Positions 50,949 through 58,560 of a stretch of DNA of 64,000 bases are shown piece after piece. The position numbers and the translations under genes were made by a program. This stretch comes from an uncultured Litoreibacter sp. (GTDB lineage: Bacteria; Pseudomonadota; Alphaproteobacteria; Rhodobacterales; Rhodobacteraceae). Below the pieces are notes generated by a model. That model searched no databases. It was not told the DNA's origin and saw only the letters and a program-made list of their open reading frames with translations. The first letter of the stretch is position 1, and the number at the start of each line of letters is the position of its first letter. The stretch is taken from positions 496,001 through 560,000 of the forward strand of contig CANLQL010000001.1 of NCBI GenBank assembly GCA_947493265.1, written 5' to 3'.

Positions 50949-52108
50949 TGCGGTGCTTCGATCTGCAAAATGTCAGGCGCGGACGGGTCGGACAAAAACC
51001 TGCATCCTGTCTCAGACAGAACAACGTTTTCCTCGTGGACCATAATCTTCCCGTCCTCAAGCAGCACGACAGGCTCCAGGGTCAACACCATACCCGCTTC
51101 AAGAACTGTGTGGTCTCCGGCCATCAGGGATGGCCATTCGGTCAATTGCAGTCCCAAGCCGTGACCGTAACGCCCGGCATCCAGGCTATTCGCGCCACCG
51201 GTGAGAACTTTGTCCATGACATGAAACAGCTCTGCTGCGGTTTGCCCGGGACGAAGAGATTGCGCGGCTGCATGAGTCGCCTCGATCAGACGCTTATGGC
51301 CGTCAGACACTTTAGGGCTAGGTGCGCCGATTGAAAAGTTTCGATCAAAATCGCAAAAATACCCGTCCCAAACTGCACCAGTATCCAGCATCAAAACATC
51401 TCCGCTTTCCAAAGGTGCAGCCGTTGCCGGGGAGATGACATCGCTATAGCCATTTTGGTCACCAGCGCCAGCGAGATAGGGCACCCAATCCGCGCCTTCT
51501 TCCAGACAAAGCCGCTGGAAATCGCGAAATACCTGATCAAGTGGAATGCCAGCCTGTGCAATTTCGCTGACGCGGTTGAACGCTCTGTTGGCGATCTGGC
51601 AAATACGTTCAATCTTTTGGACTTCCGCGTTTGATTTGATCATCCGCAACCGTCTGATGATGCCGGCATCGTCCCCAAACTGTTGCGGTCTGAGCCGCGC
51701 TTGCAGGTTTTGAAAATCTGACTGTGGCATCCGGAGATGGGTTTCAGGTCCCATCGGCAGACCGATCAGACCGTCGGTTCCGGAAATTTCGCGCAGGGTT
51801 TCTGCCAGCAAACTGATCCCATCGTCTTCCAGATCCGGGGAAGGCCAGGTGCGAATATCGTTGATCCAAGTCTTGCCCATAAGCGCTGCGCCGATGGCAG
51901 GGATAACCGCGATCGGATCGCCACTTGCCGGAACGATCAGATACCAGGGTCGGGTCGGGCTTTCCCAAAACCGCGTCAGAAACCCCGAAAAGTACCGGAA
52001 TTCAGGTTCGGTTGTCAGCAAAATGGCGGAAAGACCAGCCTTTGCCATATGTGCCTGGCAGCGCGCGACGCGGGCCTGAAACTCCGCGGTTTCAAACCCG
52101 CGTGTCAT
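50945..52108 (-). CDS. M24 family (Xaa-Pro aminopeptidase-like) hydrolase
   Basis: 387 residues, creatinase/prolidase two-domain fold. The five dinuclear metal ligands are all visible: Asp in LMLDTGAVWDGYFCDFDRNF (two Asp), His in GHGLGLQLTEWP, Glu in LTLEPVVLL and Glu in MVHEENVVL. M24 proteins include true aminopeptidases, creatinase, and the ectoine hydrolase DoeA/EutD; it does not look like a canonical DoeA N terminus, so the substrate is open. ATGA overlaps on both sides couple it to the lyase and the racemase-like gene. Confidence 0.85.
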   Translation of the reverse strand: MTRGFETAEFQARVARCQAHMAKAGLSAILLTTEPEFRYFSGFLTRFWESPTRPWYLIVPASGDPIAVIPAIGAALMGKTWINDIRTWPSPDLEDDGISLLAETLREISGTDGLIGLPMGPETHLRMPQSDFQNLQARLRPQQFGDDAGIIRRLRMIKSNAEVQKIERICQIANRAFNRVSEIAQAGIPLDQVFRDFQRLCLEEGADWVPYLAGAGDQNGYSDVISPATAAPLESGDVLMLDTGAVWDGYFCDFDRNFSIGAPSPKVSDGHKRLIEATHAAAQSLRPGQTAAELFHVMDKVLTGGANSLDAGRYGHGLGLQLTEWPSLMAGDHTVLEAGMVLTLEPVVLLEDGKIMVHEENVVLSETGCRFLSDPSAPDILQIEAPQ

Positions 52109-53175
52109 GCGGGACCTTCGCTGAGAATTGTGAGAACAGAACTTTCAGGCATCAAACAGAGCATCTCCCGATGCGCGGATGCACAAATAAGCCCAGCCAG
52201 GCCAGCGCCACCGGATGGGGAGGTTTCCAACCCCTCATCAGCAAAATCGGCCATCAAATCCAAAACTTCGTTTTCAGACAGTGTCGCGAAGAAATCGGCA
52301 TCCCGGTGCAGACCTTTCAGGGCGATCAGTGAGGCCTCTTTGCAATCCAGCCGCCCCATGGTTGAAACCGGGCCGGACGTGACCACGAATTTACTGGCGG
52401 CGATGGATGCCTGCAGGGCAGGTGCGGCTTCGGGTTCAACGACGACAATTATCGGGTCCTGCCCCCAAGCTGCGCGTGCACCTGATGCAAGAGCTGCGGC
52501 CATCCCACCAACACCTGCCTGCAAGAAGATATGGCTGGGCGGATTTGGTATCTCAGCCACAGTTTCACGGAGCAATGCGAGATATCCTTCCATCAACTTA
52601 TGAGGCGGGTCGAAATATCCGGGCCAGGAACTGTCTGACAGAAGCTGCCATCGATTTTCTTCGGCAGCTTTGCATGCAGCGGCCATACTGGCTTCGTAGT
52701 CATCCCCTTCGCGCATGACTGTCGCGCCTTTGTCGCGCAACCGATCAGCAAAAGACTCGGGCACGGTTTGGGCAATGTAGATGACCGCGTTCGCTCCAAA
52801 AACCCGCGCGCCAGCAGCTACAGATAAGCCGTGGTTTCCGGCAGATGCGGTGATGTATGTCTGACCCGCCAGTGCCGTCGACAAATCCTCGGCGCCGGTT
52901 TTGATCGCGTCGGATGCGATGACATAGGCGGCCCCCAGCGATTTAAAGCTGCCAAGGCCCATCCGGGGGCGTTCATCCTTGATCCAGACCGATCCGACTT
53001 GCACGTGCTTGGCAAGGGCATCGTTTTTGGTCAGAGGGGTCGGTGCCGCAGACGGGCACCGTTCCAGCAATTTCCAAGCCGCATCAAGATCGCTGCTTGG
53101 AAAAGGAATGTCATCTGGCAGCTCGTGAAGAGTGGCGTCTTTTTGCCCACGCGCCTTGTTTTCTAGAATGTGCAA
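52105..53175 (-). CDS. PLP-dependent diaminopropionate ammonia-lyase-like enzyme
   Basis: 356 residues, fold-type II PLP enzyme of the DpaL/threonine-dehydratase group. The Schiff-base Lys is in RMGLGSFKSLGAAYV, the cofactor phosphate Gly loop is in AGVGGMAAAL, and SAGNHGLSVAAGARVFGA and LSDSSWPGYFDPPHKLMEGY match DpaL-type proteins. Catalyses alpha,beta-elimination of ammonia from a (di)amino acid. Start TTG 53175, with GGGGA 5 bases upstream; no earlier in-frame ATG exists. First gene of the three-gene operon. Confidence 0.85.
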   Translation of the reverse strand: MHILENKARGQKDATLHELPDDIPFPSSDLDAAWKLLERCPSAAPTPLTKNDALAKHVQVGSVWIKDERPRMGLGSFKSLGAAYVIASDAIKTGAEDLSTALAGQTYITASAGNHGLSVAAGARVFGANAVIYIAQTVPESFADRLRDKGATVMREGDDYEASMAAACKAAEENRWQLLSDSSWPGYFDPPHKLMEGYLALLRETVAEIPNPPSHIFLQAGVGGMAAALASGARAAWGQDPIIVVVEPEAAPALQASIAASKFVVTSGPVSTMGRLDCKEASLIALKGLHRDADFFATLSENEVLDLMADFADEGLETSPSGGAGLAGLICASAHREMLCLMPESSVLTILSEGPA

Positions 53176-53350
53176 TTTTATCCCCAGTTTTCGTGTCGCT
53201 GGAGCCTAACTATCCATCGCCAACTATGCGATGATTTTTTCAGCTTGATGCATGGTTTTTGTGATCACGGAAACTTATGTGGAACCCGGCTTGGCGCGAC
53301 CCATACTTAAGCAGGTGGGTTTGCAGGCTTGTATCTGGTGAGGTGACGTT

Positions 53351-55150
53351 ATTTTCGGGCGAAAAATTGCAACGCTAGTCGCGGCCAGTTTGGCAATTTC
53401 GTGGTCAGTGATGGCACACGCTGCAGAATTGCGCCTGACCGCGCCGCGTTTGACGGAAGATCAACAAGCACAGATCAGATCAGCTTCGACCTTGTTTGCC
53501 ATTGAAGATTTGCAGACCGCAAAGACCCAGGACTTGGTTGCTGCGGGATTGGCAGATTACGAACGCCTGCTTTCAGTGCTGTATGAGAACGGTTTCTTTG
53601 GCAGCGAAATTTCCATTCGCGCAGATGGGCGGGAGCTGGCCTCAATCTCCGCGCTCACACCGCCGCGCCGGATCGACAATGTGACAATTTCGATCAAACC
53701 TGGGACACAATTTCGGTTTGGCAAATCTGACATTGCGCCATTGGCTTTCGCAACAGAGCTGCCTGAGACCTTCGCAACCGGGGCCCCGGCATCAATCAGC
53801 GCACTGCGCGACGCAAGTGATGCCGCAATTCTCAGGTGGCGCAATCTTGGGCACGCGAAAGCGGCTATCACAGGCCAGGAGATTGTCGCAGATCACCCTA
53901 AAAAACGGCTGAATGTTGATGTCAGCCTTGATCCCGGCCCGCGATTGCGGTTCGGGAAATTGACAGTCTCGGGCAACGAAGATGTTCGGACACGGCGTGT
54001 GTTGCAGATCACGGGCCTACCAGAGGGCAGGGTCTTCTCCCCGATCGAATTGGAACGGGCGCAAACACGGCTCCGGCGAACCGGGACGTTCAAATCAACT
54101 GTCTTGACCGAACAGGACGAGATTGGGCCAGGCAATACGCTGGGCATTGACCTGCAGGTTGTGGAAAACCTTCCGCGACGATTTGGCTTTGGGGGCGAGA
54201 TTTCCACGCAAGAGGGCCTGACCGTGTCGGGCTATTGGCTGCATCGCAACCTCTTTGGCGGCGCAGAGCGGTTGCGCTTTGACGGGGAGGTTTCAGGGAT
54301 CGGAGGGAACACAGGCGGCGAAGACCTGACGCTTTCGGTGCGATTTGATCGCCCGGCTACGTTCAACGAAGATACCGATTTTTATGCGCTGGCCGAGGCG
54401 GAACGCCGCGACGAGATCAGTTTTCTGACTCGAAAGTTTGCAACTGAGATTGGGATCAGACGGTATGCCACGTCGAAACGCGAATATACGTTCGGCTTGC
54501 GGTTGGAAACGGCGGAAACCGAGGATGCGTTTGGTCCAAGGTCCTACACATTGCTTGCAGTGCCCGTCGGTGCGCAATTTGACTATCGAAACAACCGTCT
54601 GGACGCCACCAGCGGTTATTTTGCAAATCTTCGAATTGCGCCGTTTTATGGCCTGAGCGGTGTGCCAAGTGGCGTTCGAAGTACTGCTGACTTGCGGGCG
54701 TATTACACGCCGGGCGGGGACGGAAATCTGACCTTTGCAGCACGCGCGCAGGTCGGATCGGTGGCGGGGCCCAGCTTGTCGGAAACACCTTCGGACTATC
54801 TGTTTTATTCCGGTGGTGGTGGAACAGTGCGCGGTCAAGGGTATCAATCGCTGGGGGTAGATATCGGTGGCGGAAACACGGTCGGCGGTCGCGCTTTCTT
54901 GGGTTTATCCGGTGAAGTACGGGTAAAAACAGGTGAAAACCTAAGCCTCGTTGGTTTCGCGGATGCTGGCTATATCGGTCAAGAAGCCTTTCCGGATGGT
55001 AGCAGTGGGCGATGGCATAGTGGTGCCGGGGTCGGGTTGCGATATGCGACGGGCATTGGGCCGATCCGGCTTGATGTCGCAGTGCCGGTCTCCAGCCCAG
55101 ACAACGCATCCGGTTTCGAAATATACCTTGGGATCGGACAGGCGTTTTGA
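53351..55150 (+). CDS. tamA: Outer-membrane assembly factor TamA (AUU start)
   Basis: 599 residues if started at ATT 53351. N-terminal signal peptide (FGRKIATLVAASLAISW..., cleavage near AHA-AEL), POTRA-type domains (about 25-230, with FGKLTVSGNEDVRTRRVLQ), then a C-terminal 16-strand barrel ending in YLGIGQAF with terminal Phe. TamA is an Omp85 protein inserting outer-membrane proteins with TamB. No ATG/GTG/TTG precedes the signal peptide: upstream frame runs to TGA at 53339; the first standard start (TTG 53390) would delete the charged part of the signal. AGGTGA lies 7 bases before ATT. tamB overlaps by four bases (TTGA). Confidence 0.9.
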   Translation: MFGRKIATLVAASLAISWSVMAHAAELRLTAPRLTEDQQAQIRSASTLFAIEDLQTAKTQDLVAAGLADYERLLSVLYENGFFGSEISIRADGRELASISALTPPRRIDNVTISIKPGTQFRFGKSDIAPLAFATELPETFATGAPASISALRDASDAAILRWRNLGHAKAAITGQEIVADHPKKRLNVDVSLDPGPRLRFGKLTVSGNEDVRTRRVLQITGLPEGRVFSPIELERAQTRLRRTGTFKSTVLTEQDEIGPGNTLGIDLQVVENLPRRFGFGGEISTQEGLTVSGYWLHRNLFGGAERLRFDGEVSGIGGNTGGEDLTLSVRFDRPATFNEDTDFYALAEAERRDEISFLTRKFATEIGIRRYATSKREYTFGLRLETAETEDAFGPRSYTLLAVPVGAQFDYRNNRLDATSGYFANLRIAPFYGLSGVPSGVRSTADLRAYYTPGGDGNLTFAARAQVGSVAGPSLSETPSDYLFYSGGGGTVRGQGYQSLGVDIGGGNTVGGRAFLGLSGEVRVKTGENLSLVGFADAGYIGQEAFPDGSSGRWHSGAGVGLRYATGIGPIRLDVAVPVSSPDNASGFEIYLGIGQAF

Positions 55151-58100
55151 GACAGTTTTTCGCAATCCTTCTGATGGTCTTCTGTGCGACCGCTGCTGTT
55201 GGGCAAGATGGGCGCGGGTATCTTGTCGAACTGCTCGAAGAAAACCTGAGCGGTGCGGGTCGCGAAATTCGGATCGAAGGGTTTGAAGGGGCGCTAAGTT
55301 CAACCGCGCGCCTGTCGAAAATGACCATCGCGGATGACCAAGGCATTTGGCTCACACTCGAAAACGCGGAGCTGAATTGGAGCCGCGCTGCACTGTTAAG
55401 CGGTCGTTTGGAGGTCAATGAGCTGTCGGCGACGCGTCTGGAAATTGCGCGTGCGCCCGTATCTGAAGACGACGCCATGCCCGAGGCGGAAGCGTCCGGG
55501 TTTTCACTTCCAGACCTGCCCGTTTCCATCAATATCGACCTGTTCAAAGTAGACGAAATTGCGCTTGGCGCACCGCTTCTGGGAAAACCGATCACAATCT
55601 CAGCGGAGGCATCCGCCAATCTTGCTGGAGGGTCTGGCGAGGTCAATCTGCTGGCAAAACGCGTTGACGGTGGTGCCGGCGAATTCAAAGTGATTGGCGA
55701 ATATGAAAACGCAACGCAAGCGCTGGTCCTTGATCTTGATCTGACGGAAGGGGCTGACGGAATTGCCGCAACGCTGCTGGGCTTGCCAGGGGAGCCCAGC
55801 CTTGCCTTGACGGTGAAGGGCGAGGGGACGCTGGCTGATTTTTCCAGCGACATTCAACTCGCCAGTGACGGGGAGGAACGTCTTGCAGGCAAGGTCACCC
55901 TGCGGGCAGACCCGCTTGCGGAAGGCCAGATCACGCCGGATCGCAGTTTTTCTGTTGATCTTGGTGGCGATGTTACCGCTTTGTTTTTGCCGCAATACAG
56001 ATCGTTTTTTGGCAATAACCTCAGCTTGAAAGCTGACGGTAACCGCGCGGCTGATGGGGCTTTGAACCTTGAAAGCTTTGCATTGGTCGCGCAGTCGCTG
56101 AAATTGGCGGGTGCCGTATCTTTGGATTCCGATGGATGGCCGGACGTCATCGACATCACCGGATCGGTCGCACCGCAAGACGGCGGACAGGTTTTGTTGC
56201 CCGTCGCTGGGGGCGAAACAGAGGTCGCGCAAGCGGACTTAGTGGTTACATATAACCAATCCGAAGGGGATCTGTGGCGTGCAGAGGTCACCGTAGAAGA
56301 GCTTAAAACCGCGCAGGTCGCGATCCAGTCGCTCGGCTTGAGCGGCACTGGTGATCTGACGGCAGAACTTGGTCAGGTCGGCCGCGTTGCTGGCCGGATC
56401 AATCTGTCTTCAATCGGGATGGCGTTTTCCGACAAAGCGTTGGGACAAGCGGTTGGTGACCAGATTTCGGGGTCGTTTGATCTTGCTTATGTTGAAGGGC
56501 AGCCGTTTGAATTCAAAGACATGTCAATCCGAGGTGCCGATTATGGCCTGTCAGGTGTGGCGAAGATTGATGCACTGAGCGACGCGTTCGCGACAGACTT
56601 TGATGTCGACCTGGCAGCGGAAAACCTTAGCCGCTTTTCGTCCCTGGCTGGCCGGGCGCTGGCAGGCAGCGCAAACCTAAACGCGTCCGGAACTGCTGCG
56701 CCGTTGGCCGGAAGTTTTGATATCAAAGCTACCGGAGAGGTCACCGATCTGGACGTGTCACAAGAGATCGCCAACCTACTTCTGGGCGGGGTGACCACGT
56801 TGGAGGTGTCCGCGCGACGTGATGAAACCGGCACATTGCTGCGGGTGCTTGAGGTCGAAAACCCGGAAGTGAAATTGTCGGCAACTGCGCGTCTGGCAAC
56901 CGATGATAGCGAAGTGCAATTTGCGGCGAACCTGCGGGAGTCTCGGAATATCGCGGATGCGCTCTCTGGTCCACTGAAGGTTGAGGGCACGGCTACTCAA
57001 GACAAACGCGGATGGTCGGTTGAAACGAATGCAGGTGGGCCGTTTGGCGCAACTGCAGAGATTTCCGGTCTGGCGACGGGGCCTGATGCCGCGCTGGATT
57101 TCGCTGCAAACCTGCCGAATGTCGGTGTGTTCGTGCCGCAATTGCCCGGGCCATTGCGGGCTACGGGGCGCGTTGAAAAAACCGGTGAGAATTGGAACCT
57201 AAATGCGGACGCCTCTGCGCCAGGTAATACCCAGCTTGCGACCAATGGTTTGATCAACACGGATGGAACGGTGGATTTGGCGATTGATGGCGCAAGTGAT
57301 CTGAACCTTGCGGGGCCGTTTTTGAAACCACGCAGTGTGTCGGGTCGCGCTGCTTTTGATTTGCGTCTGCGCGGTGCGCCGGGGCTTGATGCGCTTTCTG
57401 GCCGTATCACGACGCAAGGTGCGCGGTTCGTTGATCCCGGACTTGGCTTCGCATTGGAAGGTCTAAACCTGACCGCGGATTTGAACAACGGCCGCGCGCA
57501 GCTCAATACAACTGCGCAGCTGTCGACGGGGGGGGAAATCGCTGTGTCCGGCCCGGTGACACTCAGTGGGAGCTTCCCGGCGGACTTAAAAGTTCAGCTA
57601 CGGCGTGCGGTTCTGGTAGACCCAAAGCTATACCGCACGGTCCTAGACAGCGACCTGACAGTAAGCGGGCCGCTTGCGGGTGGAGCCAGCATTCGGGGGC
57701 GTGTTGACGTCGGTCTGACAGAAATCAGGGTGCCGACATCCGGTGGGTCAGCGGCAGGCAATATTCCAGTGATCAAACATGTCGGTGCCAGTGGTCCAGT
57801 GCGTCAAACATTAGCGCGGGCGGGGCAATTGGATCGTGGCGATGGATCCGTTGGGTCCGGGCCGGCCTACGGGTTGGATGTGCTGATCAGTGCGCCCACC
57901 CAGATTTTTGTGCGCGGACGCGGCATTGACGCAGAGCTTGGTGGTGCCTTGCGAATATCAGGGACCACCCGCGACGTGATTTCGACAGGCCAATTGAACC
58001 TGATCCGAGGTCGGTTGGACATTCTGACCAAACGGTTCCGGTTGGATGAAGGTCTGGTCCAGATGCAGGGCAGCCTGACACCGTATCTGCGTTTTGTAGC

Positions 58101-58560
58101 GCAAACCCAAACCGATCAAGGCACGGCCAGCGTTGTGATTGCAGGACCTGCGTCCCAGCCTGTGGTGAGTTTTGAGTCCGTGCCAGAGCTGCCGGAAGAT
58201 GAAATCTTGGCGCTGATCTTCTTTGGTCGTGATCTGTCACAAATCAGTGCATTTCAGGCTCTGCAACTGGCCAATGCAGTTGCCGTCTTGGCGGGCAATG
58301 GCGGTGAAGGCGTTGTGTCGAAACTGCGCAAGGGATTTGGCTTGGACGATTTCGATGTGACAACGGATCAAGATGGCAATTCGGCCGTGCGTGCGGGCAA
58401 ATACATCTCTGACAATGTGTATACGGACGTCACAGTCGGCGGGGCCACGGGCGGGAAAGTATCGTTGAATATCGACCTCAGCAAGTCACTGACAGCGCGC
58501 GGAAGTTTGTCGGCTGACGGCAATACGTCCTTGGGTGTGTTTTTTGAGCGCGACTATTGA
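55147..58560 (+). CDS. tamB: Translocation and assembly module protein TamB
   Basis: 1137 residues. N-terminal membrane/signal helix (about 2-20), a long repetitive beta-rich region (AsmA-like beta-taco) and the DUF490 C-terminal domain (about 760-1137) with GSLTPYLRF, EDEILALIFFGRDLSQIS and a final SADGNTSLGVFFERDY. Spans the periplasm as a lipid-conducting or OMP-assisting partner of TamA. TTG start at 55147 overlaps the tamA stop as TTGA, with AGG 5 bases before. Confidence 0.93.
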   Translation: MRQFFAILLMVFCATAAVGQDGRGYLVELLEENLSGAGREIRIEGFEGALSSTARLSKMTIADDQGIWLTLENAELNWSRAALLSGRLEVNELSATRLEIARAPVSEDDAMPEAEASGFSLPDLPVSINIDLFKVDEIALGAPLLGKPITISAEASANLAGGSGEVNLLAKRVDGGAGEFKVIGEYENATQALVLDLDLTEGADGIAATLLGLPGEPSLALTVKGEGTLADFSSDIQLASDGEERLAGKVTLRADPLAEGQITPDRSFSVDLGGDVTALFLPQYRSFFGNNLSLKADGNRAADGALNLESFALVAQSLKLAGAVSLDSDGWPDVIDITGSVAPQDGGQVLLPVAGGETEVAQADLVVTYNQSEGDLWRAEVTVEELKTAQVAIQSLGLSGTGDLTAELGQVGRVAGRINLSSIGMAFSDKALGQAVGDQISGSFDLAYVEGQPFEFKDMSIRGADYGLSGVAKIDALSDAFATDFDVDLAAENLSRFSSLAGRALAGSANLNASGTAAPLAGSFDIKATGEVTDLDVSQEIANLLLGGVTTLEVSARRDETGTLLRVLEVENPEVKLSATARLATDDSEVQFAANLRESRNIADALSGPLKVEGTATQDKRGWSVETNAGGPFGATAEISGLATGPDAALDFAANLPNVGVFVPQLPGPLRATGRVEKTGENWNLNADASAPGNTQLATNGLINTDGTVDLAIDGASDLNLAGPFLKPRSVSGRAAFDLRLRGAPGLDALSGRITTQGARFVDPGLGFALEGLNLTADLNNGRAQLNTTAQLSTGGEIAVSGPVTLSGSFPADLKVQLRRAVLVDPKLYRTVLDSDLTVSGPLAGGASIRGRVDVGLTEIRVPTSGGSAAGNIPVIKHVGASGPVRQTLARAGQLDRGDGSVGSGPAYGLDVLISAPTQIFVRGRGIDAELGGALRISGTTRDVISTGQLNLIRGRLDILTKRFRLDEGLVQMQGSLTPYLRFVAQTQTDQGTASVVIAGPASQPVVSFESVPELPEDEILALIFFGRDLSQISAFQALQLANAVAVLAGNGGEGVVSKLRKGFGLDDFDVTTDQDGNSAVRAGKYISDNVYTDVTVGGATGGKVSLNIDLSKSLTARGSLSADGNTSLGVFFERDY

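Follow-up and report, generated by a model that had tools for sequence, protein, structure and literature searches.

An apparent AUU start codon in a tamA-like gene of an uncultured Litoreibacter and weak tamA start codons across Rhodobacteraceae

The tamA-like locus and its neighbours

The window analysed here is a stretch of 64,000 nucleotides from an uncultured marine Litoreibacter sp., and the features described below lie on its forward strand (+) unless stated otherwise. A tamA-like gene (53351 to 55150), which encodes a POTRA region and an Omp85 barrel, is followed by tamB (55147 to 58560), whose TTG start at 55147 overlaps the tamA stop codon within a TTGA motif. PF07244 (POTRA, one stretch), PF01103 (Omp85 barrel) and, for tamB, PF04357 were all matched above their gathering scores, and the arrangement of a POTRA and Omp85 barrel protein beside tamB is that of the TamA of the TAM. 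The NCBIfam TamA equivalog NF047950 gave 106 bits versus a cut-off of 625, and the BamA model TIGR03303 gave 129.5 bits versus a cut-off of 297. Judged from its domains and its neighbour, and not from the NCBIfam equivalog model, the protein is TamA-like. A sequence-only reading of this DNA had tamB coupled to tamA by the TTGA; the TTG 55147 start is indeed seen inside the TTGA over the tamA stop, and the coupling itself is probable. A tamB TTG at position -1 was counted in 28 of 79 loci, which is an overcount, as the first candidate was taken and some loci have an ATG one codon later.

The divergent neighbour, on the reverse strand (-) at 52105 to 53175, encodes a PLP enzyme that resembles diaminopropionate ammonia-lyase, with a score of 243.6 bits where the cut-off is 276. 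Between the divergent genes, at 53215 to 53233, a stem with a T run behind it resembles a terminator, by consensus match only. A promoter scan found none.

We searched for relatives of this TamA in 21 genomes of the same genus, 394 genomes of the family and 37 named loci. The best relative is just 58-59% identical, where 59% is the best-segment identity value, and the signal peptides of TamA relatives do not align codon by codon. Because the nearest TamA is less than 60% identical, the codon at 53351 discussed below is not comparable with that of a close relative. Within the set, the tamA frames of the same-genus loci L003, L007 and L010 are identical to L031, L045 and L062 (Litoreibacter roseus, L. 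albidus and an uncultured Litoreibacter), which makes Litoreibacter the most likely genus.

The start of the tamA frame

The tamA frame opens after an in-frame TGA (53339 to 53341) and closes at the stop codon at 55148 to 55150. After the TGA it reads GGT GAC GTT ATT (53351 to 53353) TTC GGG CGA AAA ATT GCA ACG CTA GTC GCG GCC AGT TTG (53390 to 53392). The 16 codons between TGA 53339 and TTG 53390 contain no ATG, GTG or TTG, as had been claimed for a frame open from this TGA, and their sole ATN or CTG codons are ATT 53351, the proposed start, and ATT 53366. The first canonical start of the frame, TTG 53390, was rejected as the main start. It falls within the hydrophobic core of the signal peptide and leaves no positive n-region, in agreement with the sequence-only reading, and its Shine-Dalgarno (SD) duplex energy is just -1.7 kcal/mol; thus, no ATG, GTG or TTG of this frame can serve. 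ATT 53366 was also rejected, with an SD of -4.5 kcal/mol and the loss of the positive charge.

With translation from ATT 53351, the protein regains a normal signal peptide, (M)FGRKIATLVAASLAISWSVMAHA-AEL, or (I/M)FGRKIATLVAASLAISWSVMAHA when the first codon is read either way (53351 to 53422). The hydrophobic core of this peptide is preceded by 5 residues, an R and a K among them; the median of the relatives is 8. The full signal sequence that had been proposed from this codon is thus borne out by the translation, its cleavage site before AE being placed by eye.

The ATT is preceded by a strong, well-spaced SD, GAGGTGA (53340 to 53346), which pairs with the genome's own anti-SD at -12.1 kcal/mol; the anti-SD was confirmed on the 3' end of the genome's own 16S, GGATCACCTCCTTTCT. 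An AGGTGA had been placed exactly 7 bases upstream. The motif is present, but the stretch that pairs extends over one more base, and the 7-base gap holds when counted from 53343, where the GAGG core ends; AGGTGA itself (53341 to 53346) ends four bases before the ATT. The other codons of this region gave -4.8 (GTG 53343), -4.1 (ATG 53277) and -8.9 kcal/mol (TTG 53321). Across the window, on both strands, an SD of -12.1 kcal/mol or better precedes 5 of 1686 ATT triplets, and one as strong as that of the tamA ATT precedes 32 of 7966 ATT, ATC, ATA and CTG codons. An SD as strong as that of TTG 53321 is ten times commoner (100 of the 2820 TTG in the window). Folding of the RNA round the tamA start is weak (z +1.76), equalled or exceeded by 197 of 200 shuffles. 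SD strength by itself misleads: with near-cognates admitted as candidates, the best SD fell on one of them in 18 of the 77 relatives for which canonical candidates exist. Because no other start exists, and together with the strong SD, AUU 53351 is well supported as the tamA start in the sequence as given. This confirms the apparent AUU start of the sequence-only reading on the grounds of SD, signal peptide and absence of any other start.

In frame with tamA, immediately upstream, lies a mini-ORF, TTG CAG GCT TGT ATC TGG TGA (53321 to 53341), whose stop overlaps the tamA SD. With the SD of -8.9 kcal/mol at its TTG, it could encode a leader peptide feeding reinitiation, or be there by chance.

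Start codons of tamA across Rhodobacteraceae

Start codons were surveyed in 140 tamA loci (135 distinct, L001-L206), 81 bamA loci (one without match, 79 distinct) and 50 tolB loci. For each gene the hydrophobic core was found, every ATG, GTG or TTG located 1-32 codons upstream of the core was listed, provided that at least one K or R was encoded in the interval, and the candidate with the best SD was picked. Candidates were present in 132 tamA, with picks of ATG in 59, GTG in 45 and TTG in 28, as compared with ATG picks in 72 of 78 bamA and 48 of 49 tolB. The Fisher p values for tamA versus bamA (4e-13) and versus tolB (2e-12) are descriptive, since genes from related genomes are non-independent. 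An ATG candidate is missing from 53 of 132 tamA, 1 of 78 bamA and 0 of 49 tolB. A second count, independent of both SD and search range, asked whether an ATG occurs anywhere from the in-frame stop to the core. It is absent from 40 of 134 tamA, a set that counts the window's gene, from 0 of 79 bamA and from 0 of 50 tolB. In the 21 genomes with both genes, the present one included, the tamA picks are ATG in 9, GTG in 7, TTG in 4 and none in 1, and the bamA picks are ATG in 20 and TTG in 1. The G+C content of the tamA set, 0.637 versus 0.601 (bamA) and 0.621 (tolB), may add to the GTG count.

An earlier, smaller control (search range -22 to -2; 77 tamA versus 30 bamA) was non-significant (p = 0.13 and 0.10) and had dropped 10 of 40 bamA that lacked a candidate. 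Because bamA n-regions are long, the search was then extended to -32, and further genes, tolB among them, were added. Narrowing the range to -16 removes the contrast with bamA (22 of 43 ATG, p = 0.48), because most bamA starts then fall outside it. The contrast of tolB with tamA holds at all three ranges.

The rule gave no candidate in 3 of 135 tamA, namely the window's gene, L044 and L158. In L044 a GTG sits at the core's edge, and in L158 (G196) there is an ATG 37 codons upstream; a bamA that had come up in the same way, L121 (G123), has an ATG further upstream. The window's tamA is thus the only one of 135 family start regions in which a canonical start is wholly missing, and a near-cognate start is required in 0 of the 134 others, all of them more distant (<60% identity). 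Four Mesorhizobium loci (L064-L067), excluded from the family counts, show a strong-SD CTG (-14 to -15 kcal/mol) seven codons before the signal core, within glycine codons after an ATG. As the G-rich stretch codes for these glycines and the ATG is available, CTG was rejected as their start.

The median SD of the tamA picks is -7.6 kcal/mol for ATG, -8.6 for GTG and -9.4 for TTG (ATG versus the rest, p = 0.007). Weaker tamA codons pair with stronger SDs, and the AUU with its -12.1 kcal/mol continues this line, a trend that is suggestive only since the picks were themselves made by SD. Annotation gives a similar picture in two Aliiroseovarius plasmid stretches, where tamA is annotated with TTG and GTG, against a baseline of ATG 53, GTG 3 and TTG 3 among 59 complete genes (63 genes listed, 4 cut ones excluded; PLSDB tables incomplete). 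N-terminal proteomics of Ruegeria pomeroyi, which covers detected proteins only, gave ATG 94%, GTG 5% and TTG 1%, according to passages of PMC3305630. From these counts, tamA start codons appear to be unusually often GTG or TTG across Rhodobacteraceae, and the AUU looks like the extreme of the trend. No account of weak or AUU tamA starts came up in our literature searches, and no ATT or AUU passage was found in PMC11445065. As far as these searches show, the weakness of tamA starts across the family had previously gone unnoticed.

Other explanations for the ATT codon

A single-base assembly error at 53353 would make the gene ordinary, with ATG, or another canonical start one change away, as its true codon. 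The SD and the signal peptide fit a start at this position whatever the third base, the AUU is known from one genome, and all 134 other tamA regions have a canonical start. We nevertheless hold such an error to be unlikely. By a rough reckoning from general rates and from the two AUU genes that passages of PMC9410913 give for Escherichia coli, a consensus error at one given base occurs less often than near-cognate starts do in nature. The assembly, in 5 contigs with completeness 99.95 and contamination 0, appears sound, and a crude ORF map of the window has no gaps beyond about 310 bases and no obvious split genes.

A little less probable again is a recent mutation by which an ancestral ATG, GTG or TTG drifted to ATT, so that tamA is poorly made and its start serves no regulatory purpose. 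tamA is not known to be essential in well-studied bacteria, the rest of the gene would stay intact at first, and the ATT is seen in one genome, all of which would suit such a drift. The SD, however, is among the strongest of the family's tamA genes (7 of the 132 picks of relatives match its -12.1 kcal/mol), as if compensating, and the frame, the POTRA and Omp85 domains and tamB are all intact.

If TGA 53339 were an error or were read through, the start could be TTG 53321, with an N-terminus of MQACIWxGDVIFGRKIATLV.... TTG is common in the tamA of the family (28 of 132 picks), this one lies in frame with only the TGA between, and its SD of -8.9 kcal/mol is near the median of tamA TTG picks. Yet an SD of this strength is the commoner kind in the window, whereas the well-spaced GAGGTGA before the ATT, a 32-in-7966 occurrence among near-cognates, would become a coincidence, and the n-region would contain an acidic residue and a Trp. 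We therefore consider this start very improbable. The least probable explanation is a one-base indel error within 53343 to 53376 (runs T4, G3 and A5), which would join to tamA the overlapping frame at 53277 to 53378, open from ATG 53277 (also GTG 53343) to TAG 53376; GTG is common for tamA (45 of 132 picks), but both starts have weak SDs, the strong SD would again be a coincidence, and the shortness of the base runs and the apparent soundness of the assembly also speak against it.

Non-canonical starts in other bacteria

To our knowledge, few bacterial genes besides infC start outside ATG, GTG and TTG. A natural AUU start of tamA, read here from sequence alone, is credible and would join this small class. 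E. coli infC (AUU) and the infC of other bacteria share with tamA a near-cognate AUN start. They differ in that infC is autoregulated by its own product, IF3, whereas TamA is no translation factor and tamA could at most respond passively to IF3. As autoregulation through IF3 is described for infC only, tamA would be at most IF3-sensitive and not autoregulated. In E. coli pcnB, the AUU reportedly limits translation, as stated in a 2002 title by Binns and Masters. The sequence-only reading had attributed IF3-dependent autoregulation to both infC and pcnB, which holds for infC but not for pcnB, where passages of PMC9410913 describe the AUU as limiting translation. pcnB thus offers a likeness to tamA, an AUU that limits the output of a non-ribosomal gene, with the difference that the pcnB start was established by experiment.

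Streptomyces sigR (GTC, RBS AGGAGGTG) also leads a coupled gene pair and likewise combines an extensive SD with a non-canonical start. Extracts of PMC5472188 report that it is repressed by IF3 and that its start can set the level of a regulator. It differs from tamA in its codon, GTC and not AUU, in the retention of this start in 32 of 34 Streptomyces and in the effect shown on its regulon. In Staphylococcus aureus, cvfC1 (AUU) as well as ccpN and citZ (AUA) combine a near-cognate start with a long SD, as does tamA. According to the portions of PMC13009471 consulted, these cases were shown by ribosome profiling, AUU and AUA reporters reach ~10% of AUG in poor medium, and the cvfC1 and ccpN starts are conserved; that of citZ, unlike several others, is limited to one lineage. 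The GTG and TTG starts of other Rhodobacteraceae tamA belong to the same gene and family and are also weak, but they are canonical alternatives that standard gene finders read.

A model for tamA initiation

We think it probable that tamA is translated from AUU 53351 by means of its strong SD, at a low rate, as the extreme of a family-wide habit of weak starts. The GAGGTGA lies 7 nt upstream, where the RNA is weakly folded, and would dock the 30S subunit with the AUU in the P site. Pairing would be poor, with the initiator tRNA matching the AUU at two of three bases, and IF3 would be expected to discard many of these complexes, which would lower tamA output. The pre-protein would thus be complete and carry a normal signal peptide, but would be made slowly. 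Given the likely coupling of tamB through the TTGA overlap, the weak start may limit the whole pair. Use of the AUU in the cell, the lowered output, discrimination by IF3 and tamA-tamB coupling are what we infer from this arrangement.

The infC gene of the same genome carries ATA at the conserved start, ATA GCC CGC AGA CCT CAC AAC. The same codon is found at this position in all 20 infC found in the 21 genomes of the genus, the present one included (L096, L097-L115). In two of them, L098 and L114, the frame is closed by a stop a few codons further up, and no canonical start falls between that stop and the ATA. Judged from the conserved N-terminus, infC appears to start at AUA.

Meaning for the family

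Standard gene finders would be blind to a start such as that of the window's tamA; they would call the frame from TTG 53390, and the signal peptide would be lost. A wider question is why tamA starts are weak across the family while bamA and tolB almost always use ATG. One tentative answer, which we judge somewhat less probable than its opposite, is that the weak tamA start is a conserved regulatory trait that holds TAM low, with stronger SDs compensating. In the present organism the AUU would then tie TAM to the level of IF3 and the fidelity of initiation, infC being autoregulated through its AUA. The tendency of the family towards weak tamA starts suggests that its cells keep TamA scarce.
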